Assembly (NCBI GenBank): GCA_026388155.1
Contig: JAPLKI010000010.1
Coordinates: forward strand, 1 to 64,000
From: Elusimicrobiota bacterium
GTDB lineage: Bacteria > Elusimicrobiota > Elusimicrobia > Elusimicrobiales > UBA9959
Direction of reading: 5' to 3'
DNA length: 64,000 bases
Numbering within the stretch: position 1 is the stretch's first letter; each line of letters begins with the position of its first letter. A program made the position numbers and the translations under genes. The notes beneath the pieces were generated by a model that was not told where the DNA came from, did not search any database, and was given only the letters and a program-made list of their open reading frames with translations. Below are positions 32,527-63,764 of the stretch, piece by piece.

Positions 32527-32554
32527 TTGACAAATGGTTTATACATGCTATACT
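32527..32554 (+). promoter_or_regulatory. Sigma-70-type promoter of the riboswitch/PorV transcript
   Basis: A perfect -35 box TTGACA (32527-32532) and a -10 box TATACT (32549-32554) are separated by 16 bp. The -10 is preceded by TGC, giving an extended -10. Transcription should start near 32561, about 30 nt before the riboswitch fold. This is the best-looking promoter in the window. Confidence 0.7.
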
Positions 32555-32589: not shown

Positions 32590-32680
32590 GTGCAATGTTA
32601 CGATAATAGCAAAGCCGGCCAAAGCCGGCGGCGCAAAGCCAAGACCCGCTAAGTACGGCGGGGGTCAGGTTGCCGAAAAC
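32590..32680 (+). promoter_or_regulatory. GEMM-I type cyclic-dinucleotide riboswitch (c-di-GMP, or cGAMP-class variant)
   Basis: Key GEMM-I signatures appear in order: GCAAA (32609-32613), a 6-bp hairpin GCCGGC/GCCGGC with a CAAA loop (32614-32629), GGCGCAAAGCC (32630-32640), a second hairpin GACCC...GGGTC containing CTAAG/TACGG-like receptor elements (32643-32666), and GGTTGCCGA (32668-32676). Spacing through the first hairpin matches the Vibrio Vc2 aptamer base for base. The base equivalent to Vc2 G20 is A (32608), which is the hallmark of the GEMM-Ib group that prefers 3',3'-cGAMP. The loop CAAA is not GNRA, and the second hairpin is short. It lies between a strong promoter and a terminator hairpin. 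The family call is fairly sure; the ligand is uncertain. Confidence 0.75.
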
Positions 32681-32681
32681 G

Positions 32682-34355
32682 ATGAAACGCATAGTATTTC
32701 ATATACTTGCCCCGTCTGGAATATGGGCCGTTGTAAAGCGCATTGAGCGCTTGGGCCTTTCCACGGGGCTTTTTGTTTCCGTCGGCGCCCTGGAAAAATT
32801 CTCTTTCTCCCTGCTCTTTCTTGCCGCAGCCTTAAGCTTTCAGCCTTCAGCTTTGCTGGCCCAGGGCGGCGGACAGCCCGGCCAGTTCATGTCTTACGGC
32901 GCCGGCGCGCGCGGGCTTGGCATGGGCGGGGCGTTCTTCGCCGTGGCCGACGACGCCTCGGCCTCTTACTGGAATCCGGCGGGGCTTACGCTTCTTGAGC
33001 GCAGTGAATTCACCGCCATGCAGGCGACCATGTTCTCCGATACCACGCTTTCTTTCTTTACCTACGCCCATCCCACCTCCACCAGGGGCACCTGGGCCGT
33101 GAGCATGACGCAGATTAAATCCCTGGGTTTTGAAAAAATTTCCATAACGGCAAATCCCGGCGGCGACGAAATAATAGACATAAAGAGCCTCGGCTCTTTT
33201 GACAACATGGAGCGCGCCATGGCTTTCTCGTGGGGCCGCGATGTGTCCGACAAGCTTTCCTTCGGCATCATGGCGAAAAATATCACCCGTTCCCTTGACA
33301 CTTCAAAAGACTCTTTTAACGCAATAGACATCGCCATGATGCAGAAATTTTCCCCAACCTACAGGATGGCGATAGGTGTGCAGAATGTGTTCTCAATGGC
33401 ATCCGGCGACACCGAAGACAAACTGCCTCTTACCCTGAAATTAGGCCAGGCGCTCAGCCTTTTTAAAGGCAGCCTGCTGTTCGGCCTTGATTTTATCAAA
33501 CCGCAGAGCTCCGCAATGAACTGGCGTTTCGGAGGCGAGTACTGGCTTATGTACTGGGCGGCTTTGCGTTTCGGCGTAATGGGCGCGCCCGGCATTCAGG
33601 AAGCCGATTTCGGAGTAGGCATAAAGTACAAGAGCCTGGGCTTTGACATATCGCAGGGCATTCATGCGCTCGGCACCACCACAAGGTTCTCGGTTACCAT
33701 GCGCATGGGCCAGTCCAATAAAACCAAGCACGACAGCGATGTGCGCACGATAGTGCGCCAGGCTATGCAATACTTCAAGGCCGGTTATTTCACAAGGGCC
33801 ATAGAGAAGCTTAAGAACGCCATAGACTCCGATCCCGGCAACATGGAAATAAAACGCATGCTTATACGCTTGAGCGCCGCCGTGGACTATGTGCCCGACG
33901 CCACCGGCGTCGAAGAAGTGCCCACGCTCGCCCGGCGCGGCATTATCGCTTATGTGGACGGCAAGGATCTGCACAATGCGGTCAATATTCTGCGCCACGC
34001 TTTCAACAAAGACTCCAAAAACGACCACCTGCTCTCGCTCCTGAATATGGTGGAGAAAGAAGCCGGCGTCACCGAACTTTCCCGTAAGCCCGAGGGGCCG
34101 GAAATATTCACCTACATAGACCAGCGCACCTACGACGCCCGCCAGGCCATTTATGACGGGAAGTACGACCTGTCCATGAAACGCGCCCAGGATATACTTG
34201 AACTTGAGCCGAATAATGAAACCGCTCTTGAAATAATGGGCAGTTCTTTCTATCTGATGAATCAGAAAGATAAAGCCAAGGTGATGTGGGAAAAAGTGTT
34301 GGACATCAATCCTGATAATAAGATAGTGAAAGAATTCCTACAGCAGATAAAATAA
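32682..34355 (+). CDS. PorV/UPF0164-like outer-membrane beta-barrel protein with C-terminal TPRs
   Basis: Residues from about 70 carry the family signature: ARGLGMGGAFFAVADDASA and YWNPAGLTLL. Alternating hydrophobic strands typical of a FadL/PorV-like barrel run to about residue 330. The rest (about 345-557) is helical with TPR-like repeats (for example ALEIMGSSFYLMNQKDKAKV), likely periplasmic. A hydrophobic signal segment FSLLFLAAALSF ends at SALLAQ. The start is uncertain: ATG 32682 would give about 40 extra residues before the signal core and would place the terminator hairpin inside the gene. A CTG at 32790 would give a normal signal peptide after the terminator. Neither has a clear Shine-Dalgarno. 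In T9SS bacteria PorV carries cargo at the outer membrane. Here the gene directly follows a giant surface protein with a sorting-like C-terminus, so a partnership is plausible but inferred. Confidence 0.8.
   Translation: MKRIVFHILAPSGIWAVVKRIERLGLSTGLFVSVGALEKFSFSLLFLAAALSFQPSALLAQGGGQPGQFMSYGAGARGLGMGGAFFAVADDASASYWNPAGLTLLERSEFTAMQATMFSDTTLSFFTYAHPTSTRGTWAVSMTQIKSLGFEKISITANPGGDEIIDIKSLGSFDNMERAMAFSWGRDVSDKLSFGIMAKNITRSLDTSKDSFNAIDIAMMQKFSPTYRMAIGVQNVFSMASGDTEDKLPLTLKLGQALSLFKGSLLFGLDFIKPQSSAMNWRFGGEYWLMYWAALRFGVMGAPGIQEADFGVGIKYKSLGFDISQGIHALGTTTRFSVTMRMGQSNKTKHDSDVRTIVRQAMQYFKAGYFTRAIEKLKNAIDSDPGNMEIKRMLIRLSAAVDYVPDATGVEEVPTLARRGIIAYVDGKDLHNAVNILRHAFNKDSKNDHLLSLLNMVEKEAGVTELSRKPEGPEIFTYIDQRTYDARQAIYDGKYDLSMKRAQDILELEPNNETALEIMGSSFYLMNQKDKAKVMWEKVLDINPDNKIVKEFLQQIK
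32709..32774 (+). terminator. Intrinsic terminator, probable riboswitch expression platform
   Basis: A long stem pairs GCCCCGT (32709-32715) with ACGGGGC (32763-32769), continues as GGAA...TTCC and GGCC...GGCC, and has an inner AAGCGC/GCGCTT hairpin. Five T residues follow directly (32770-32774). It starts about 30 nt after the aptamer, the usual layout for ligand-controlled termination. It overlaps the 5' part of the downstream reading frame, which makes that gene's start uncertain. Confidence 0.65.
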
Positions 34356-34517: not shown

Positions 34518-36473
34518 ATGCGCAGATCACTGCTTGCAATTATTCTGGCGGTCCTGGCCGTCCATCGCGTTTTTGCCCAGGCTAACACGCCCGCCGCCGT
34601 ACCGGATACCATGGGTGTTTCCCTGATGGAGAAGCAGGCTTCTCTCCGGCTGGAGGTGGAAAGTAAAATAAAAAGCGAGATCCTTGATCCGATCATGGGT
34701 CCCGGCAAGTCCTTCGTTTTCGCCGATGTGGAGATGGAAGTGGTCTCAAAAAAGTCGGAACAAAACACAGAGGAAATGGGAGCTATTCAGAAATACAAGG
34801 AGAGGGGGGCAAAAACCGGAAGCACCGATACGGATTTTATATTACCGGGAATTCCAAGACAACCGGCTGTTACGGGGGCAGACAATGCCCGCCCGGAGGC
34901 CGCGCGGGGCCAGCAGACGCAGCAGCAGAAGGGCATACAGCAGGTGCGCTACGGCCTTGAAACCGACATCACCCGTTTTCAGGTGACCGTTATCCACGAT
35001 GAGACCGTTTCCCCGGAAAGCCTTAAAACCGCCCGTGAGCGCGTTGACGATTTCCTGATACCTTACAAGATCCACGGCCATGACGCCGCCACGGTCGTTT
35101 TCAAACCCACCAGGTTCAAGAGTTATAATATCCTTGAGGATTTAAGGCGCCCGGGGGTTTATCTGCCGCTCCTCTACGCACTGCTTTTCCTGCTGATGCT
35201 GCTGTTTCTTTTCGGGCCCCTTTGGGGTTTTTTCAGGAAATATATAAAGGCTATCCTTGCAAAGCCGGGCGCCGAGGTCAATATTGACCAGAAAATGGAA
35301 GAAGGCGGCGGCGGCGGCGAAAAAAACGACGCCACTGAAGAAGGGCATCAGCAAATTGACATGAATTTTCTCCAGAAAGAGGAGGAAAAAAAAGATGAAG
35401 AGGATGAGCTTATGAAAAAATTTGAGCCGTTTACTTATTTAACCGAGGAAAATCTGAAAAAACTCGTCTATTTTTTTCTGCTTAAAAAGGAAGACCCATG
35501 GGTTATAGCGCTGGTATTAAGCTACTTGAAGCCGGAACTTTCCCGTCAGGCGCTTTCCATGCTGCCGCTTGAAATGCAGTCCAGGGTGGCTCTTGAAGCG
35601 CTGACCGTGCGTCAGGCCAAGCGCGAGCAGATAGAGGCCATAGACAAGGATATACGGGAAAACGTTGATTTTGTGATGGGGGGCATAGAACGCCTGGCCA
35701 AGATGCTTGAGGACAGCGATGCCTTCACCAGAAAAAACATAATAGAGTATCTCAAAACCCAAAAACCAGATGTTTACGAAAAAATTAAAAAGATAATCCT
35801 TATATTCGAGAATCTGATCAGTTTCACCGATAAGGATTTGCAGACCATAATAAGGAGCGTGAGCAACGAAGACATAGCCAAAGCGATTTATAAAGCCGAT
35901 CCCCAGCTGGTGAATAAGTTCTTCGCCAATATGTCGCAGGGCGCGGTCAATGCCATAAAGGAGGTAATGGAATACTCAGGTGAAATCAGCCCTACTCAGG
36001 TAGATGAGGCCCAAATGAAGATTTTGGACGCCGTAAAAAGCCTGGAGGCCGAGGGAAAGATAAGCGCCCGCCAGCAGAACACCCAGGAGGTTTATATCAT
36101 AGACAGCGATGAAGTCGCCTCCGGCGAACAGCGCAGGCAGAAATTGAAGAGTATCGCCCCTGATGTAATTGAAGCCCGGCCGCCTCAGGGACAGGCTTCG
36201 AACCCGGAGGAGGCTCAACAAGCGGCTCAGTATCTGTCGGCCGGAATTGAGTTATACAACCAGGGAAAGCTGGCCGAAAGCCTGCAGTATTTTGAGTATG
36301 CCTCAGGACTCAACGCCCTGGACGCCCAGATCTGGCAGTGCCTGGGCACGGTTTATTACGCCCTGAACAGAATGGACGAAGCTATGCGGGCCTATGAACG
36401 CTACGCTTCACTCTCAAACGACCCGGCCGTGAATGAATGGCTGGCCGGGTTTAAGCAGCAGGCGGGGAAATAA
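34518..36473 (+). CDS. FliF-FliG-TPR fusion: rotor-ring-like protein
   Basis: Domains in order (651 aa): signal peptide or first TM (1-20); a FliF C-terminal/ring-building-like stretch (about 34-200, including ILDPIMGPGK, the equivalent of LEPVVGPG); a TM helix (about 212-240); an acidic/glycine linker (255-305); FliG middle domain (305-425, IALVLSYLKPE); FliG C-terminal domain (428-520, FTDKDLQTIIRSV, KFFANMSQ, VDEAQMKI); and TPRs (570-650). FliF RBM1/RBM2 are missing. By-eye alignment to E. coli FliG gives K264=Y458, R281=G475, D288=E482, D289=V483 and R297=S491, so most torque charges are lost. The FliM-binding EHPQ motif reads EDPW (325-328). It should sit in the inner membrane with FliG in the cytoplasm. 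MotA and MotB are encoded downstream on the same strand. Domain assignment is strong; the job is inferred. Confidence 0.88.
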   Translation: MRRSLLAIILAVLAVHRVFAQANTPAAVPDTMGVSLMEKQASLRLEVESKIKSEILDPIMGPGKSFVFADVEMEVVSKKSEQNTEEMGAIQKYKERGAKTGSTDTDFILPGIPRQPAVTGADNARPEAARGQQTQQQKGIQQVRYGLETDITRFQVTVIHDETVSPESLKTARERVDDFLIPYKIHGHDAATVVFKPTRFKSYNILEDLRRPGVYLPLLYALLFLLMLLFLFGPLWGFFRKYIKAILAKPGAEVNIDQKMEEGGGGGEKNDATEEGHQQIDMNFLQKEEEKKDEEDELMKKFEPFTYLTEENLKKLVYFFLLKKEDPWVIALVLSYLKPELSRQALSMLPLEMQSRVALEALTVRQAKREQIEAIDKDIRENVDFVMGGIERLAKMLEDSDAFTRKNIIEYLKTQKPDVYEKIKKIILIFENLISFTDKDLQTIIRSVSNEDIAKAIYKADPQLVNKFFANMSQGAVNAIKEVMEYSGEISPTQVDEAQMKILDAVKSLEAEGKISARQQNTQEVYIIDSDEVASGEQRRQKLKSIAPDVIEARPPQGQASNPEEAQQAAQYLSAGIELYNQGKLAESLQYFEYASGLNALDAQIWQCLGTVYYALNRMDEAMRAYERYASLSNDPAVNEWLAGFKQQAGK

Positions 36474-36612
36474 CGCAAGCCTGAAGGCTTGCGCGCCATA
36501 AGCCATATGCTCTAGGCCATAAGCTATGTGGCTGTTCCAGCCGCGCCATAGGCCGTAAGCTTTTAAGGAGTTCTTTACAAGCCTATGGCATATGGCGTAA
36601 AGCTTATGGCAA
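36474..36612. repeat. Stem-loop plus intergenic hairpin repeat, family B copy 1
   Basis: An 8-bp hairpin CGCAAGCC/GGCTTGCG (36474-36493) directly follows the FliFG stop; no T-run. Then comes a long inverted repeat of GCCATAAGC-type units (36494-36612) with a centre AAGGAGTTCTTTA. The remaining stretch up to 36745 shows no convincing gene or promoter. Confidence 0.7.
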
Positions 36613-36745
36613 TCCTGTCCACAGCCTGTTAACAATTCTTTAACCTTAGTGCAATGTCGGATTTATAGAATATGGGTGTGGAAGTGAAGTCTGAAATTAT
36701 ATTTCAGCGCCTGCAGGCTTGTAACTTGTAACGGGAACTAATTCT

Positions 36746-39046
36746 ATGGACGACAGTGAAAAGAAACCTCCAAAACCCGGCATACCGCCTTTGCCGCCTG
36801 GAATTTTAAGGCCCGGCCTGCCTTTACCCCAGCCGGGCGCGCGTCCGGCCCCGGTCGGCGGCTTGGGGCTGCCCAACCCTTTCGCTCAAAATTCGCCGCC
36901 CCAGTTCCAGAGCGCAGCCGCTTACCCCGATGCCCGCGCGCAGCAGGCCGCGAGCGAATCTGCGGCTGAAACCGCCAGAATGAAAGAAGAAAAAGATAAG
37001 CTCGAAAAAAAGATTTTAGAGATGGAAAAGCTGCTTTCCCAGGAGAAAGAGCGCGCTCTTTTAGCCACCCTTAAAAACCAGCAGGATGAGACGCTCTCTT
37101 CAAAAGTGGAATCTTCCCTCAAGGATATACAGGACCGCATGCGCCGCGATAAGCGCGATCAGGAAGTGGAGGAGGAACGCCTTACTTTTAAAGGCAAGAT
37201 AAAAGAGCTTGAAACCCGCCTGATGCAGGAGCGCGAAACCTGGATGCAGAGTCTTAAAGGGCAGGTGGCCGAGCGCGAAACACAGGGGCGCGACGTGGAA
37301 GGACATTTTATTTACCGTTTGCAGGAGATGGAGCGCCGCTGGCTTGACGAGAAAGCGCAATGGCAGAAGGAAATTTCAAGCCGTGAGGACGCCATCCGTT
37401 CGCTCAAGTCCTCGGCCGAGCGGTTGCGTGAAGTCGAGGACGAATTCCGCAGCGTCAGCCTTGAAAAATCCCTGGCTGAAAAGGAAATCTCAAAGCTCCG
37501 CGACGATGTCGCGCGCGCGGAAAGAGAAAAAGCGTCCATAGAGTCCTATATCAAGGCCATGCCGGAGAAGGAGCGGGAACTTGCCGAACTGAGAAGCGAA
37601 GCCGCGATCTTGAAGATGAAGGAGGAAAGGACGCACAGCGATTTTAAGCATCAGGAAGAAAAATACCTCCTTGAAATAGAAAAGCTGCAGCGGGAGCTGG
37701 GCGGCCTCTCCGACAAAAAAAATTCGGAAAAAACGGAGGAACTGAGGGCGCAGATGACCCGCCATGAGGCGCTGCTCCAGGAAAAAGACAAGACCATAGC
37801 CGAAGTTTCAGGCGACAAAGTGCGCGCTATTTCAGAGATGCTGAAAATAAAGGGTTTCGTCTCAAAAGTGCAGGCGATAAATGCGGTGCTTGACAAAGAA
37901 AGAGGACAGCTGCGCATTGAAAAGATGCAACTGGCCCAGAACATGGCGGCCCAGCTTGAAGAGATCAAAAAACTGCGGCAGGAGCAGGAACTTTTCAAAG
38001 CGTCCCACCACGGCGAGATCGAGGAATTTTCAAAAAAATACAGCGAGGACATCGAAAAAATTAAAACCGGAATGGCCTCGGAGTTCGCCCGCCAGCATAC
38101 CGAGAAAATAGCCGAACTTTCCCGCAAGCAGGCCGAGAAAATAGCCGAACTTTCCCGCCAGCGGGACGAGAAAATAGCCGAGCTTTCCCGGCAGCGGGAC
38201 GAGAAAATAACCGAGCTTTCCCGCCAGCAGGACGAGAAAATCGGGAAGCTTACACGCGCTCATATGGAAGAGATGTCTTCTTACGCGGCGAAATGTCAGG
38301 CGGATCACGACTTGAAACTTTCCGAGTTGCGCTCCAGGCTTGAACGGTCCTCCTCCGATTTTAAAGCCCAGATCGAGGCCGAGTATGCGGCTAAATTTAA
38401 ACAGCTCAAAGAGCTTGCCGTAATTTCCGAGGGAGAGAAAACACATCTTGAGATTGAAAACCGCAGGTTCTCCGAGAAGTTCAATAATTTTGAAAGGGTC
38501 GCCGCTTCAAAGCAGGAAGAACTCGCGGCCAAAGCTGAGGCGCAGTACGGCGCGCTGGCTTCACAAAAGGCCGAATTGGAAAAATACGTCCGCGCCTTTG
38601 AAAACGAAAGGTCAAAAATGGCCGGAGACCTTGCCTACGTCAAAAATCAGCTTGAGGCCGAAAGGTCAAAAATGGCCGGAGACTTTTCCGCCGCCAAAAG
38701 CCGGCTTGAGGCCCTTGCCGCTCAGAAATCCGCCGCCGAGGCGGAACTCGCCCGGCTTTCAGGCCAGCTCAGGACGGAAAGCGCCAATCGCGCCGGTTTT
38801 GAGGCCGAGATGCTTTCGCTTAAGAACAGAGTCCGTGACCTTGAACAGGCCGCCGCTGAAAATGAGAGCCTGTTCGCCTCCGAACGGGATAACGCGGAGG
38901 CTATGAAGACTGCCGCCCGGGCTCAGCTTGCGGATTGTGAGGCCAAAATCGCGGAGCTTTCAGGAGAACTGGAAAAATATAAGGCGGTTGAAAGTTCTCT
39001 TGGTTCCAGGCTCAAGTGGGCGATTAAGGGTAAGACAAGCGAATAG
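36746..39046 (+). CDS. Long coiled-coil protein with proline-rich N-terminus
   Basis: 766 residues. Residues 1-50 are rich in P and G (GIPPLPPGILRPG). From about 70 to the end the sequence is almost entirely charged coiled coil (E/K/R/L/A), with no signal peptide or TM, so it is probably cytoplasmic. Residues about 453-507 form five 11-residue units of type EKIAELSRQRD (hendecads). There is no enzymatic motif. It sits between FliFG and FlbD-MotA-MotB on the same strand and may act as a cytoplasmic scaffold or filament of that machine; this is inference. The start ATG has only a weak upstream GGGAAC. The stop codon lies in the next repeat element. No family recognised. Confidence 0.85.
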   Translation: MDDSEKKPPKPGIPPLPPGILRPGLPLPQPGARPAPVGGLGLPNPFAQNSPPQFQSAAAYPDARAQQAASESAAETARMKEEKDKLEKKILEMEKLLSQEKERALLATLKNQQDETLSSKVESSLKDIQDRMRRDKRDQEVEEERLTFKGKIKELETRLMQERETWMQSLKGQVAERETQGRDVEGHFIYRLQEMERRWLDEKAQWQKEISSREDAIRSLKSSAERLREVEDEFRSVSLEKSLAEKEISKLRDDVARAEREKASIESYIKAMPEKERELAELRSEAAILKMKEERTHSDFKHQEEKYLLEIEKLQRELGGLSDKKNSEKTEELRAQMTRHEALLQEKDKTIAEVSGDKVRAISEMLKIKGFVSKVQAINAVLDKERGQLRIEKMQLAQNMAAQLEEIKKLRQEQELFKASHHGEIEEFSKKYSEDIEKIKTGMASEFARQHTEKIAELSRKQAEKIAELSRQRDEKIAELSRQRDEKITELSRQQDEKIGKLTRAHMEEMSSYAAKCQADHDLKLSELRSRLERSSSDFKAQIEAEYAAKFKQLKELAVISEGEKTHLEIENRRFSEKFNNFERVAASKQEELAAKAEAQYGALASQKAELEKYVRAFENERSKMAGDLAYVKNQLEAERSKMAGDFSAAKSRLEALAAQKSAAEAELARLSGQLRTESANRAGFEAEMLSLKNRVRDLEQAAAENESLFASERDNAEAMKTAARAQLADCEAKIAELSGELEKYKAVESSLGSRLKWAIKGKTSE
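38102..38266 (+). repeat. Five tandem 33-bp repeats (hendecad coiled coil)
   Basis: Units start at 38102, 38135, 38168, 38201 and 38234. They encode EKIAELSRKQA, EKIAELSRQRD (twice), EKITELSRQQD and EKIGKLTRAHM. The 11-residue period fits a hendecad (right-handed or nearly straight) coiled coil, and the DNA identity suggests slippage-driven expansion. Confidence 0.9.
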
Positions 39047-39143
39047 CAAATAGTGGCCGGCGATTAGCGAATAGTCGTAAAGCATCTCTTGATCTATTTC
39101 GCTACTTCCCTGATTCGTGATTTCACTATTCGCTAACCCCCGC
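39040..39143. repeat. Intergenic hairpin repeat, family A' (GAATAGCG units)
   Basis: Arms of GCGAATAGC-type units at 39040-39075 and CTATTCGCTA-type units at 39095-39137. The left arm contains the TAG stop of the coiled-coil gene. Same unit type as 60419-60505 and as the insert in mfd. Confidence 0.65.
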
Positions 39144-39152
39144 CTCTTTAAG

Positions 39153-39158
39153 TATAAT
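39153..39158 (+). promoter_or_regulatory. -10 box TATAAT, predicted leaderless start for flbD
   Basis: A perfect TATAAT ends 7 nt before the flbD ATG (39166), so transcription would begin at or next to the start codon. No Shine-Dalgarno is present. No good -35 is seen about 17 nt upstream. Confidence 0.4.
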
Positions 39159-39165
39159 TATTAAA

Positions 39166-39390
39166 ATGATCAAGCTTAAAAAACTTAACGGTTTTGAAAT
39201 TGTGGTGAACGCCGAGCTTATTGAGAGCGTCGAGGCCACCCCCGATACCGTGATAAATCTTGCCACCGGCAACAGGTTCATTGTCAGGGATTCCGTGGAT
39301 GAGGTGGTGGCCAGGGTGGTGGAATATAAAAAGAAGGTCTATAGTGAGCGGAAAGTGATAAATCCCATAGAGGGATTTGAAAAGAAGTAA
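39166..39390 (+). CDS. flbD: FlbD family protein
   Basis: 74 residues, the full length of this small family. It matches the typical pattern MIKLKKLNG...NAELIESVEATPDTVI...V.ESVDEVVA.V.EYKK. In flagellated bacteria flbD commonly sits next to motA/motB in flagellar operons; its exact role is poorly defined. Here it lies 101 bp upstream of motA, strengthening the flagellar-motor ancestry of the block. Probably leaderless, with -10 TATAAT 7 nt upstream. The family call is confident. Confidence 0.9.
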   Translation: MIKLKKLNGFEIVVNAELIESVEATPDTVINLATGNRFIVRDSVDEVVARVVEYKKKVYSERKVINPIEGFEKK

Positions 39391-39392
39391 TG

Positions 39393-39482
39393 TAAGTTTG
39401 CGAGTTGTGAGTTGTGGGTTAGGAGTTAAAAGATCCTGAACTCTTAAACTCTAAACTCATAACTCTAAACTTACAACTTCCC
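39393..39482. repeat. Intergenic hairpin repeat, family C (GAGTTNTGAGTT units)
   Basis: Left arm of GAGTTGTGAGTTGTGGGTT type (39402-39425) and right arm CTCTAAACTCATAACTC type (39441-39470) are complementary. Separates flbD from motA. Confidence 0.65.
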
Positions 39483-39491
39483 GGAGAATTT

Positions 39492-40277
39492 ATGGATATA
39501 GCCACAATAAGCGGAATAATAGTTTTTCTCGGTTTCATTTTAGGCGCCGTGTATAAACAGGAAGGCTTAGCCGGCTTCAAACCGTTCATGAACCTGGAGG
39601 CTTTCCTTGTTGTCATGGGCGGAACTTTTTGCGCCATTTTGGTGAATTATCCGCTTTCCGCTGTTATAGGTGTGGGCAGGGTGCTTAGGCAGGTGCTGAC
39701 TTCCAAGGGCGAGGATACCTCGCGGCTGGTTTCCACCTTCGTCACGCTTTCCCAGAAAGCCAAAAAGGAGGGGTTCCTGGCGCTTGAAGGGGATGTGAAA
39801 GCCCTGGACAATGATTTTTTAAAAAGGGGAGTGCAGCTTGTTATAGACGGGGCGGATCATGAATTTATAAAGAATATGCTGGAAACCGAGCTGGATTTTA
39901 TAAGGGAACGCCATAAAGTGGGACGGGAAATTTTCAACGCCCTTGGCACTTACGCCCCGGCTTTCGGCATCATAGGCACGGTGTTGGGTATGATACTGCT
40001 GCTTGCCAACATAGACGATGTAACCCAGGTCCCGCGGCGCATGGCGCTGGCGCTTTCGTCCGCTTTCTTCGGCCTTGGGGCCGGTTACTGGCTTTTTCTG
40101 CCCATGGCCGGAAAACTCAAACACCGCTCCGAGGAAGAGCTTTTCGTCAAAGAAATAATCATAACCGGCGTGCTCCTTTTACAGAGCGGCTCCACGCCCA
40201 GCGTGGTGGAAGCGAACCTGAAGGCTTATCTTGACCCTTCAAAACGCGCCGCTGTGAAAAAGGAAGCTAAGCCGTAG
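39492..40277 (+). CDS. motA: MotA-type stator protein (proton or sodium channel subunit)
   Basis: 261 residues with four TM helices and the large cytoplasmic loop of MotA/PomA. Functional residues are kept by eye: K91 and E99 align with E. coli R90 and E98 (rotor contact), P156 (TYAPAF) with P173 and P204 (LFLPMAG) with P222. The Shine-Dalgarno GGAG lies upstream (39482-39485). motB follows after 16 bp, so the two are co-transcribed. With MotB it should form the 5:2 ion-driven stator at the inner membrane. The stator contact residues look conventional, in contrast to the divergent FliG part encoded at 34518. Confidence 0.93.
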   Translation: MDIATISGIIVFLGFILGAVYKQEGLAGFKPFMNLEAFLVVMGGTFCAILVNYPLSAVIGVGRVLRQVLTSKGEDTSRLVSTFVTLSQKAKKEGFLALEGDVKALDNDFLKRGVQLVIDGADHEFIKNMLETELDFIRERHKVGREIFNALGTYAPAFGIIGTVLGMILLLANIDDVTQVPRRMALALSSAFFGLGAGYWLFLPMAGKLKHRSEEELFVKEIIITGVLLLQSGSTPSVVEANLKAYLDPSKRAAVKKEAKP

Positions 40278-40293
40278 CGGAGAATAATATTTT

Positions 40294-41043
40294 ATGTCGT
40301 TAAAAGTCAGGGGAATGATCCCGGAAGATGACATCCGTGTGGCGCTAATAGGCCATCCCGCGCCGCCCTGGCTGGTAAATTACGCCGACCTGATGACTGA
40401 GATGGTGTGCTTTTTCGTCATTCTTTACGCCCTGTCCGCAGCCCTTAACAAGGAAATGCAAAAAGCCCAGAAGGATATAACGGAAATGATGAAGAATGGC
40501 AATATACAGGGCCAGGTTAAAATGGATAAAGAGGGAATGCGCATTACCCTTGAAGAGCAGGGTCAGTTCGCTTTTTTTGAAAGCGGCCGGAGCGAAATAA
40601 CCGACAACATGCGCTCAAAGCTGGACAAAATAGCCCCTGTGCTTAAAACCCTCGCCGCCAAGCACGATATAATAGTGGAGGGCCATACCGATAACATCCC
40701 TATCGGCGCCAACGGCGCCAAACAATTCGCCACAAACTGGGAGCTTTCCACCGCCAGAGCCACCAGCGTGGTGAGATATCTTCTCAGTTCGGATTTTCCG
40801 CCCAAAAGGATGGCCGCCATAGGTTACGGGGAGTTTCATCCCATTGCCGCAAACGATACTGAGGAAAACCGCCGCAAGAACCGCCGGGTGGTGTTTTTAG
40901 TGAAAACCGGCCCGTACATTGACGCGTCGCCGGAAACTCCCGGGATAAAGCCCGCGGTTCCGGCGTCAACGGTGCTCACTCCCGAACAAGCGCCGTCCGG
41001 CGAGGCCAATGAGCAAGCCCCGCCGGGTGCAGCCCCCCAGTAA
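40294..41043 (+). CDS. motB: MotB-type stator protein with OmpA-like peptidoglycan-binding domain
   Basis: 249 residues. A single TM with PPWLVNYADLMTEMVCFF places the ion-carrying aspartate at D32, the same number as in E. coli. The OmpA-like domain (about 85-205) has VEGHTDNIPIG and NRRKNRRVVF for peptidoglycan anchoring. The C-terminal tail (207-249) is P/A/E-rich. Odd: E36 lies one helical turn after D32, where most MotB/PomB proteins have a hydrophobic residue. The Shine-Dalgarno is CGGAGA about 12 nt before ATG. Forms the stator with MotA. Confidence 0.93.
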   Translation: MSLKVRGMIPEDDIRVALIGHPAPPWLVNYADLMTEMVCFFVILYALSAALNKEMQKAQKDITEMMKNGNIQGQVKMDKEGMRITLEEQGQFAFFESGRSEITDNMRSKLDKIAPVLKTLAAKHDIIVEGHTDNIPIGANGAKQFATNWELSTARATSVVRYLLSSDFPPKRMAAIGYGEFHPIAANDTEENRRKNRRVVFLVKTGPYIDASPETPGIKPAVPASTVLTPEQAPSGEANEQAPPGAAPQ

Positions 41044-60512: not shown

Positions 60513-60861
60513 GGGGGCGAATAGGTTCGACGTTAACTTGTTCTGTCAGATCAGCAGGCCATGGTTGACCAGGCCATGTAAAACAGGGTCAAAAAAACAA
60601 AAGCCAACTCCAACGAGATGGCCTGGGCGCACGCTTAAGTGTGCCTCGCTCGCAGACTGCCGCCCGCGCGGAATGTAGAGCGTTACAATGCGGGATGCTG
60701 TCTTTTGGGGCGCGCTTCGTCCCTGGAAGGCAAAAGACAATACGGAGCTTGTCCGGTACTTGCCGCCCTGAGCTTAGTCCGGACGAGACACATTCGGGGC
60801 TAAGCCTGTAGCGGTTCTGACAAGCGGTTGACGGACCCGGGTGCGAATCCCGGCGCCTCCA
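60513..60861 (+). ncRNA. ssrA: Transfer-messenger RNA (tmRNA)
   Basis: 349 nt, one-piece. The 5' end GGGGGCGAATAGGTTCGACG pairs over 7 bp (one G-U) with 3' CGCCTCC, and CCA is encoded at 60859-60861. The T-arm-like GGACCCGGGTGCGAATCCCGG is present. A tag reading frame ends at TAA 60636-60638 at the base of the GGCGCAC/GTGTGCC hairpin. Rescues stalled ribosomes with SmpB and tags the product for proteolysis. A terminator follows. Confidence 0.93.
60591..60638 (+). other. tmRNA proteolysis-tag reading frame (KKTKANSNEMAWAHA)
   Basis: After GTC (60588-60590) the likely resume codon AAA opens a 15-codon frame ending TAA, reading KKTKANSNEMAWAHA. Most bacterial tags end in ALAA or a close variant; AHA is unusual. 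The resume codon is inferred by analogy with E. coli (GUC then GCA); the stop is firm. Confidence 0.65.
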
Positions 60862-60867
60862 TAATTT

Positions 60868-60988: not shown

Positions 60989-61159
60989 GTATTATAGCGA
61001 GAGGGAAATGTTTTTGCAAATTTTAGGCGGTTGAAAGCTTAAAGTCTAGGGATAACTTACAATAAGTGCCCTTATGTTGCCTACAGATTAAGTCCCCCCG
61101 GCTTTTCGCCGCTTTCTTTCGCTATCCGCCCCTTATTTATTATAAAATTAAAATTGAAA

Positions 61160-62497
61160 ATGAAAAATGATAGGGCGTTGAATCTGTTGGTCGCTTGCGG
61201 GCTTTTTGCGGCTGTCTCCTGGCTGCTGTTCGCCCACGGGCGCTATTTTCTATGGATCTTTCCCGCCTACGGGGCGGTTTTTCTGTGGTTTTCCTGGCGC
61301 CCTGAAAAAGAGATAAAATTTGTTTTTCTTTTCCTGGCCACGGCTGCCGGCTTCATTATGCCTAAGCTTTCTCCGGAAGCCGATTCCCTGTCCGGCGCCG
61401 CGCTGACGCTTGCCGAAATACTCTCGCTTTGGCTTCTGTTTTACGCTCTTTCCAGCTCGGAAAGAGGCAGGGCCTCAAAGCGCGAGAAAATTTCGGCTGC
61501 ACTCGCCAAGGCCAGCGAGCGGGAAAAAAATCTGCGGGAAGAACTTCAGCGCTATTGTGAACACAGGGAAAGTCTGCTGGGTAAAATAAAGCTCCAGGAG
61601 GAGGTCGCTGTTTCCATAAGGCAGATGGCTTCCGCCTCCGGCGCCGCGGAAATAAAGCTGGCGCTGGAAGCCAGAATGAAAAGTGTTTTCGAGGGCTGCG
61701 ATTCACGCCTTGATTCCGGGGCTCCTGTTGATTTTCTTGAAACCTGGGTGATGGAGCGCAAAATCCCGCTTTTAGTGCGGAATTCGCAGGAGGAAACCCG
61801 GTTTTCCCGCGCGCTGTTCGCGCCGTCGCAGCGTTCGCTGATGGCGGTTCCTCTTTATTTTTTCGGTTCCGTGGACGGATTTCTGCGCGTTTCCTCGCCT
61901 GAACCCGGCCGTTTTGCGCAGGAGGACCTGCGCGCGGCCGAGCTTTTGGCGACTTTCGCCAGCGTGAGCATGGAAAATATTTATCTTTTTGATAAAGTGC
62001 GTGAACTGGCCATAAAAGACGCCTTAACCGGGCTTTACACCCACCGCGCTTTTCAAAGCAGGATAGATGAGGAAATATTGCGCTCCGCCCGCGCGAAAGC
62101 GCCTTTTTCGCTTGTGATGGCCGATATAGACCACTTCAAGTCCTACAACGACAATTACGGCCATCAGGCCGGCGACGAAGTGCTGAAGGCCGTCGCGGAA
62201 GTTTTTGCGTCGGGAGTGCGCGATATAGATTTCGTGGCCCGTTATGGCGGGGAGGAATTCGCCATAATATTTACCGGCGCCGACAAGCTGCAGGCCGCTG
62301 AAGCGGCGGACCAGCTGCGCAGGCGCCTTGAAAGCCGAAAATTCTCCTTTAACGGCAGGCCCTCAGGGGTAACGGCCAGTTTCGGCGCGGCCCAATTCCC
62401 GTCCGACGGCGCCATAGCAAGCCAGTTGGTGCGCACCGCCGATGAACGTCTTTATAAGGCCAAAGAAGATGGCCGCAACAGGGTGGTGTATGAATAA
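61160..62497 (+). CDS. Membrane GAF-GGDEF diguanylate cyclase with intact I-site
   Basis: 445 residues from ATG 61160 (a TTG at 61154 is also possible; no Shine-Dalgarno). Three to four TM helices (to about 100), a coiled-coil signalling helix, a GAF-like sensor (about 150-275), then GGDEF (285-445): MADIDHFKSYNDNYGHQAGD, RYGGEEF and inhibitory RDID exactly five residues before GGEEF. The base-contact Asp in GDEV is kept, so the product should be c-di-GMP rather than cGAMP. Product inhibition is expected. Overlaps the next gene by 8 nt. Confidence 0.92.
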   Translation: MKNDRALNLLVACGLFAAVSWLLFAHGRYFLWIFPAYGAVFLWFSWRPEKEIKFVFLFLATAAGFIMPKLSPEADSLSGAALTLAEILSLWLLFYALSSSERGRASKREKISAALAKASEREKNLREELQRYCEHRESLLGKIKLQEEVAVSIRQMASASGAAEIKLALEARMKSVFEGCDSRLDSGAPVDFLETWVMERKIPLLVRNSQEETRFSRALFAPSQRSLMAVPLYFFGSVDGFLRVSSPEPGRFAQEDLRAAELLATFASVSMENIYLFDKVRELAIKDALTGLYTHRAFQSRIDEEILRSARAKAPFSLVMADIDHFKSYNDNYGHQAGDEVLKAVAEVFASGVRDIDFVARYGGEEFAIIFTGADKLQAAEAADQLRRRLESRKFSFNGRPSGVTASFGAAQFPSDGAIASQLVRTADERLYKAKEDGRNRVVYE

Positions 62498-63764
62498 GGC
62501 CGGACTTCTGGCTGTCCTGGTCGCTTTTGCCCCGCTTGTTTCCTATTTTTTGGGCCGCTTCAACAATTATGCCGGTTTCGCGGCCGGAACTGTATGGCTT
62601 TTTGTTTCCGGTTCTCTGCTGTTCGCCGCCGGGGCGACAGCCGGACCCTCCATGGCGCTTTGTCTTTGGAGTTCGGCGGCTCTTTTTCATTCGCTGCTGT
62701 TGAATTCGGCAAAAGAGCGGGCGCCCGAGGCTATGACGGGGAAATTAGCGGAAATTAAAAAGCTTGAAAAATCTCTTGCCGGGGAAAAGGCCGCCCTGGC
62801 GCTCGCCTCCGGCTCCGAAAAAAAAGCCCACATACTCTATTCCACCATAAAGCTTTTGTCGGAGACCGTTTCCCCTGAAAATGCCAGAAGCAGATTTTCC
62901 AAGTATCTGGCGGATTATTTCGAAACAGGGGATTTCGCTTTTTTCCTTGAGGATCTGAATTCCGGGGACGCGCCCATGGAACTTTTTGCCTCAGGCGGAA
63001 ATAATTCCGGGCTCAATTCCTGGCAAAAACTGAGCGCCGCTTTAACCGCCGCCGGTAAAGACACCCGCTCGCCCTGTGTTCTGGCTTCCCCCGCGCCCTA
63101 TGTCTGCGTGCCGGTGTCCAATTCCGGAGAGACGCTCGGTTTTTTCGCTTTCAGGCCGCCTGAGGGCGCGGCGCCTGAAGACTCGCTCGCCGCTTCGGCC
63201 AGGTTCGTTTCCGAGATCTCGTTCGCCGTGCAGCGCATACAGCTTTTCCGCCGGGTGGAGTGGCTTTCCCTGACGGACGGGCTTACAGGGGTGGGCCGCC
63301 GTAACGCTCTGGATGACAAGATGAACGAGGAAATACGCCGGGCGCTCGCTTTCAAAACCACGCTTGGCTTTATGATAGCCGACATTGACCATTTTAAGCG
63401 CGTAAACGACATCTACGGCCACCAGTTCGGCGACGCGGTGCTGAAGAAAGTGGGGGAACTGCTGAAAGACGGAGTTTATGAAACCGACTTCGTCGGCCGC
63501 TACGGCGGAGAAGAATTCGGCATTGTCCTGCCCAGGGCGGACGCAGCCGGCGTTCTCAGGAAAGCCGAAGCTCTGCGCCTGAGGATAGCCGGGGAAAATT
63601 TTCAGTTGGGCTTTGAAAGTGTTAGAATAACGGTGTCCATCGGAATAGCCCATTTCCCGCGCGACGGCCGCAACGCATCAGAGTTGTTTGCCAAAGCCGA
63701 TGCCGCGCTTTACGCCGCCAAGGAAGGCGGCCGCAACCGCGTTGTGGACGCGGGCAGTGTATAA
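62490..63764 (+). CDS. Membrane GGDEF diguanylate cyclase lacking the I-site
   Basis: 424 residues from ATG 62490, which overlaps the upstream stop in ATGAATAA; AGGGTGG upstream acts as Shine-Dalgarno, so translation is coupled. About three TM helices (to about 75), a coiled coil, a GAF-like region (about 120-250), then GGDEF: IADIDHFKRVNDIYGHQFGD and RYGGEEF. The I-site position reads YETD instead of RxxD, so no classical feedback inhibition. The selectivity Asp (GDAV) is kept, predicting c-di-GMP. A tandem paralogue of the preceding gene. Confidence 0.92.
   Translation: MNKAGLLAVLVAFAPLVSYFLGRFNNYAGFAAGTVWLFVSGSLLFAAGATAGPSMALCLWSSAALFHSLLLNSAKERAPEAMTGKLAEIKKLEKSLAGEKAALALASGSEKKAHILYSTIKLLSETVSPENARSRFSKYLADYFETGDFAFFLEDLNSGDAPMELFASGGNNSGLNSWQKLSAALTAAGKDTRSPCVLASPAPYVCVPVSNSGETLGFFAFRPPEGAAPEDSLAASARFVSEISFAVQRIQLFRRVEWLSLTDGLTGVGRRNALDDKMNEEIRRALAFKTTLGFMIADIDHFKRVNDIYGHQFGDAVLKKVGELLKDGVYETDFVGRYGGEEFGIVLPRADAAGVLRKAEALRLRIAGENFQLGFESVRITVSIGIAHFPRDGRNASELFAKADAALYAAKEGGRNRVVDAGSV

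Follow-up and report, generated by a model that had tools for sequence, protein, structure and literature searches.

The stretch of DNA analysed here (64,000 nucleotides from an Elusimicrobiota bacterium, hereafter the window) contains a riboswitch aptamer followed by a run of genes on the same strand. The first of these genes, at 32682..34355 (+), encodes a PorV/PorQ-like outer-membrane protein with TPR (Pfam UPF0164 and TPR). It scores 109.1 bits with the NCBIfam model PorV_fam, above the cut-off of 90, and does not reach the PorV and PorQ equivalog models. Behind it lie, in this order, a FliG-like protein (FliG_M, FliG_C) with TPR at 34518..36473 (+; Pfam FliG_C, 97.4 bits), a gene without family, a MotA-like proton channel at 39492..40277 (+; Pfam MotA_ExbB, 92 bits) and a MotB-like protein with the Pfam domains MotB_plug and OmpA at 40294..41043 (+). 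The gaps between the genes measure 16 to 445 nt, and the run from the PorV-like to the MotB-like gene is possibly one operon. The combination of a FliG-like protein with TPR, MotA and MotB (34518-41043) beside a PorV-like protein resembles a motor cluster.

In front of the aptamer, a sigma-70-type promoter was recognized at 32527..32554 (+), composed of TTGACA, 16 nt and TATACT, with TG before the second hexamer (11/12 matches). The consensus scan yielded two overlapping sites, compared to 0.4 expected in shuffles; they are matches to a consensus rather than mapped transcription starts. The region upstream of the riboswitch is occupied by an open reading frame of 10,786 codons (59-32419, +) of the repetitive surface-protein type. 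Near its C-terminus, a weak FlgD_ig match is found, whose 21.1 bits fall short of the cut-off (27). Furthermore, two GGDEF diguanylate cyclases are encoded at 61154..62497 (+; NDNYGHQAGD / GGEEF) and 62442..63764 (+; NDIYGHQFGD / GGEEF). Profile matches and motif reading assign both to the Asp type, in agreement with the initial annotation.

The whole-window Rfam scan (cmscan) resulted in two matches: a tmRNA at 60513-60864 and the c-di-GMP-I aptamer, RF01051 (GEMM-I), at 32598-32677 (+), with 59.8 bits and an E-value of 3.4e-9 over the full model (1-87). The gathering score of RF01051 is 35 bits, which places the RNA well within GEMM-I. Model position 11, the consensus G directly 5' of the GC of the lower P2, is aligned with an A (32608..32608, +). 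In the numbering of Vc2, this position is taken to be that of G20. The equivalence agrees with PMC9262584, in which G11 of the Cd1 aptamer corresponds to Vc2 G20. A GEMM-I aptamer core with A at this position had been proposed beforehand from the sequence, and both elements are confirmed by the covariance model and its alignment.

By sequence reading, the 5' side of the lower P2 is G-C (32609..32610, +), facing G-C at 32633-32634. P2 is closed by a CAAA loop and P3 is short. J1/2 is AUAAUA and resembles the ACAAUA found in the Geobacter-type aptamers, a point that counts against c-di-GMP as the ligand. The genome (3.36 Mb, 96.9% complete) carries one further GEMM-I match, also with A (G000:C6:8585-8659, minus strand, 59.9 bits; L001 1501-1575). 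In both copies, the consensus GAC before GCAAAG is GGC. The second copy is preceded by a promoter-like TTGACA. About 150 nt downstream of it, a hairpin-like stretch with a terminal T-run is present, ahead of a reading frame of 339 codons.

Across the order, the aptamer was encountered in 48 of 149 genomes, all of them within one family of 59 genomes, with a total of 107 matches. All 107 were read: 96 have A and 11 have G. The A form is present in 46 of the 48 aptamer-bearing genomes (39 with A only, 7 with A and G), and the remaining two have G only. Nearly all A aptamers have a U before the A, as in Geobacter, and the base of P2 is G-C/C-G in 107/107. Among the 86 aptamers with a P2 of 16 nt, the most common loops are GAAA (28), UAAA (24) and CAAA (17). 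The CAAA loop and the short second hairpin, described earlier as unusual, are indeed present in the window, but they are ordinary within this family.

At the level of the phylum, 139 of 340 genomes have a GEMM-I match. Among the best-scoring 115 loci listed outside the family, 94 have G and 21 have A by eye; a script reads 92 G and 18 A, with 5 unresolved, and the higher-scoring selection favours G. Locus L070, unmatched in a first base-calling script, is G by eye and also according to the later script. A thus arose or persisted in several families of the phylum and became the rule in that of the window.

The initial annotation took the A at 32608 as the mark of a GEMM-Ib riboswitch that senses 3',3'-cGAMP, with the source of cGAMP to be sought elsewhere in the genome. 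Such a true cGAMP riboswitch would imply that G20 changed to A20 in the family, and that 3',3'-cGAMP is made by an enzyme other than a Ser-type GGDEF. The prevalence of A, nearly always after U, suits this view, as does the co-occurrence of A and G aptamers in 7 of 48 genomes, which is expected for two signals told apart. On the other hand, A is the rule in the family (96 of 107 aptamers), and the enzymes of the family speak against the cGAMP reading. The GGDEF proteins of the genome have Asp at the selectivity position in all cases (5/5). The genome also encodes four PilZ domains, and no EAL domain was found in it. For six relatives, 30 of the 35 GGDEF matches have a locus and were considered: 25 are Asp and one is Asn by script, and four (L294-L297), for which the script gave no motif, were counted as Asp from the pattern rows. 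The sole Asn-type protein (L298 in G112) would favour a cGAMP source, but was rejected as such, being present in one relative only.

The search was extended with a DNA pattern in which the GGDEF selectivity position is Ser, Thr or Cys (Hypr screen). No true Ser-type case was detected by this pattern in the 59 genomes of the family or the 340 of the phylum; the single Ser match, the same one in both scans (G098), is not within a GGDEF. The Asp version of the pattern matches 56 of the 59 family genomes. A CD-NTase, another candidate source in favour of cGAMP, is encoded in the genome of the window (L143 892-2181, minus strand; PADLOC, 339.5 bits). CD-NTases (SMODS) occur in only 6 of the 59 family genomes, this one included, compared to A aptamers in 46 of the 48 aptamer-bearing ones, and this candidate was also discarded. 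A further group of proteins (L035, L036 and the relatives L307-L317), recurrent in the family, displays GGDDF (GGDDY in one case) with Asp at the selectivity position. They are perhaps inactive cyclases.

As a control, the Ser pattern was applied to 50 genomes of a named collection that carry A-type aptamers, with ten further loci left out. The scan of this collection produced at least 123 A-type matches in at least 118 loci. According to the pattern, a true Ser-type GGDEF is present in 11 of 21 Deltaproteobacteria, 0 of 23 Firmicutes and 0 of 6 Omnitrophota, after discounting 3 of 20 matches that are not GGDEF. The comparison also revealed a second mark accompanying the Geobacter-type aptamers, C-U/G-G at the base of P2, which is a distinction made in this analysis and not a published definition. 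It is present in 29 of the 123 A-type matches listed, against 94 with G-C/C-G, and among the 80 listed loci with printed names, it is restricted to Deltaproteobacteria (17/17). Genomes with C-U/G-G have a Ser-type GGDEF in 9 of 16 cases, compared to 2 of 34 for G-C/C-G (Fisher p 1.8e-4, with kinship ignored). Since the pattern retrieves Ser in only 9 of the 16 genomes with Geobacter-type aptamers, its absence is not proof. The aptamer of the window lacks C-U/G-G and has G-C/C-G, like A-type aptamers of Firmicutes and Omnitrophota, which argues against a Geobacter-type sensor. A-type GEMM-I aptamers therefore exist in Firmicutes, Omnitrophota and Elusimicrobia genomes without a Ser-pattern GGDEF.

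Published aptamers point in the same direction. In the Bc2 RNA of Bacillus thuringiensis, a natural A-type, A11 is predicted to face Galpha, and the RNA is reported to respond both in vitro and in vivo: c-di-GMP raises read-through, and A11T abolishes the effect (PMC4933901). The word cGAMP does not occur in the text of that paper; hence, the c-di-GMP response of Bc2 does not exclude cGAMP binding. For Cd1, PMC9262584 reports no large effect of G11A on c-di-GMP binding. Moreover, a PorV orthologue is located behind A-type aptamers in families f1 (37/37) and f13 (3) and behind G-type aptamers in f14 (4) and f15 (1). The same gene in the same layout, with the start codon abutting the aptamer, fits one ligand for both types, and this weighs against a cGAMP riboswitch.

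As a general rule, the cGAMP reading is contradicted by the A-type aptamers found elsewhere; for this RNA, it is quite improbable. The likelier ligand of the riboswitch in the window, as far as the sequence comparisons indicate, is c-di-GMP, and perhaps it also answers to cGAMP, if any is present. An explanation compatible with this, to which we assign even chances, is that the A-type aptamer binds both dinucleotides and that the A and G copies set the affinity for c-di-GMP rather than the choice of ligand. The presence of both aptamer types in seven genomes would fit. In PMC9262584, the G20 equivalent is reported as a selectivity factor and not a hard filter, and cGAMP riboswitches are reported to be able to bind c-di-GMP via a protonated adenine. 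By itself, an A in place of G20 is no basis for calling cGAMP riboswitches, as this base is common in lineages without a recognisable cGAMP cyclase. Orthologous riboswitches that differ at the ligand-facing base, yet control the same gene, constitute testable sets.

The arrangement of the aptamer and the gene is strict. In the window, the ATG of the PorV-like gene lies 4 nt past the aptamer match. In all 37 PorV loci of the family, the first ATG is situated 3 to 7 nt past the aptamer, open and in frame with the protein, and it is the sole start codon common to all of them. These PorV loci are those in which the protein was found within reach by a motif script, loci cut by a contig end being uncounted. 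In the sister families, an in-frame ATG abuts the aptamer in 8/8 PorV loci, of the A-type (f13) as well as the G-type (f14, f15). Many relatives have a further candidate start, an NTG in frame ahead of AAG-CG, within the terminator described below; in the window this codon is GTA, and the alternative was rejected.

Within the signal-peptide codons, an intrinsic terminator hairpin (GCCCCGU ... ACGGGGC) is predicted at 32709..32769 (+), with a folding energy of -31.3 kcal/mol. It ends at +92 and is followed by the tail UUUUUGU (32770..32776, +), a U-tract whose codons, according to sequence and alignment, contribute to the hydrophobic core of the signal peptide. The z-score of the region 32700-32780 is -3.29. 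Of the 37 family PorV loci, 35 (all except L016 and L041) have such a hairpin and U-tract roughly 31 to 114 nt past the aptamer, in the codons ahead of the signal-peptide cleavage region, compared to 17 of 111 dinucleotide shuffles. In the sister families, seven of the eight PorV loci were examined for it (L139 was left out); two have none and one has a weak one.

An alignment of the terminator (A1) comprises 31 of the 37 PorV loci, L019, L027, L041, L042, L051 and L080 being omitted for length or divergence. In these 31 loci, 89.6% of the cells pair, versus 85.4% in shuffled alignments. The covariation score is 0.171 versus 0.128, a value as high being reached in 0 of 500 shuffles, with compensatory changes across the family; two of the five measures (double-change pairs and pair types) are not above shuffles. 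Even very divergent sequences still fold into the terminator: L009 (z -5.87), L027 (z -5.40) and L042 (z -4.32).

In a second group of the same family, with a long aptamer, the T-run precedes the ATG, and in the loci inspected an SD-like GGAGG is placed ahead of this codon, which makes the in-gene terminator peculiar to the PorV group. At long-aptamer loci such as L057, L065 and L101, the 3' end of the aptamer (GGCUGCCGAA-like) is followed by a second GGCUGCCGAA-like stretch within ~40 nt, and this second stretch is the 5' arm of the terminator.

How the aptamer communicates with the terminator can be approached from the few elements around the ATG. The only SD-like bases (GGGGGUCAGG) precede the ATG by 12 to 22 nt and are part of the aptamer. 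Since the 3' strand of P1 also ends a few bases before this codon, a bound aptamer should block ribosomes. Against a role of these bases, 12 to 22 nt is far for a Shine-Dalgarno sequence, and in other family genes led by a riboswitch, a GGAGG-like site lies near the ATG. An ordinary antiterminator would also connect both parts: the 3' strand of P3 (GGCGGGG) would pair with the 5' arm of the terminator (CCCCGUC), in a c-di-GMP riboswitch that does not involve translation. In the window, this is possible, with 7 pairs and -15.0 kcal/mol between the two stretches. Over 11 loci, however, own pairs average -12.2 kcal/mol and swapped pairs -11.6 kcal/mol; the complementarity does not track the partner, without a sign of co-evolution, and it is weak in L009, L027 and L042. 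The antiterminator is thus considered unlikely. As the terminator and the aptamer share no sequence, and P3 shows no co-variation with the terminator arm, translation is the simplest link.

The explanation we consider rather probable is that a GEMM-I riboswitch answering to c-di-GMP controls the PorV-like gene at the head of the FliG-, MotA- and MotB-like run, as an OFF switch that couples translation to termination. The ligand-bound aptamer would hold its own 3' strand and the sole SD-like bases beside the start codon. With no ribosome loaded, the hairpin in the signal-peptide codons would form, and transcription would stop. Without ligand, the ATG would be used for initiation, and the hairpin would be kept open by the leading ribosome. 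The ligand, the OFF direction and the coupling are what we infer from this arrangement; switching off by the ligand would make sense for motor genes when c-di-GMP is high.

More tentatively, the expression platform may be the coding sequence itself. The aptamer would gate the adjoining ATG and the in-gene terminator would end transcription when the first ribosome is kept off, converting repressed translation into a transcription stop, in a layout kept in at least four Elusimicrobia families while the ligand-facing base varied between G and A. Literature searches retrieved no paper on riboswitches of Elusimicrobia or Elusimicrobiota, and papers on Elusimicrobia and c-di-GMP, going by titles and the start of abstracts, contained nothing on such a riboswitch. 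Nothing on the succession of aptamer, ATG and in-gene terminator was found in the literature on terminators in coding regions, which is no proof of absence in print. More remarkable than the A base is where the terminator lies, inside the controlled gene. A conserved terminator in an open reading frame beside an aptamer would add a new type of expression platform.

Compared to the known c-di-GMP-I class (RF01051), the RNA of the window has the common fold and core junction, with a score well above the gathering threshold. It differs by the A in place of the G facing Galpha, the short P3 and the terminator beyond the start codon. Bc2 is likewise a natural GEMM-I with an A (A11) predicted to face Galpha; in contrast to the window, it is reported to work as an ON switch, and its terminator precedes the start codon, in the 5' UTR. 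Bc2 was compared here by its published description (PMC4933901), and not by sequence. With the Geobacter GEMM-Ib cGAMP riboswitches (pgcA, pilM), the window shares the A at the G20 position and the preceding U, whereas the Geobacter-type aptamers differ in the C-U/G-G of their P2 base, and many of their genomes have a Ser-type GGDEF. Attenuation of transcription through the translation of a leader peptide is a known mode of control. The window resembles it in that a ribosome could hold the terminator open just past the start codon; in contrast to leader peptides, the frame translated here is the main gene, and the aptamer abuts its start codon.
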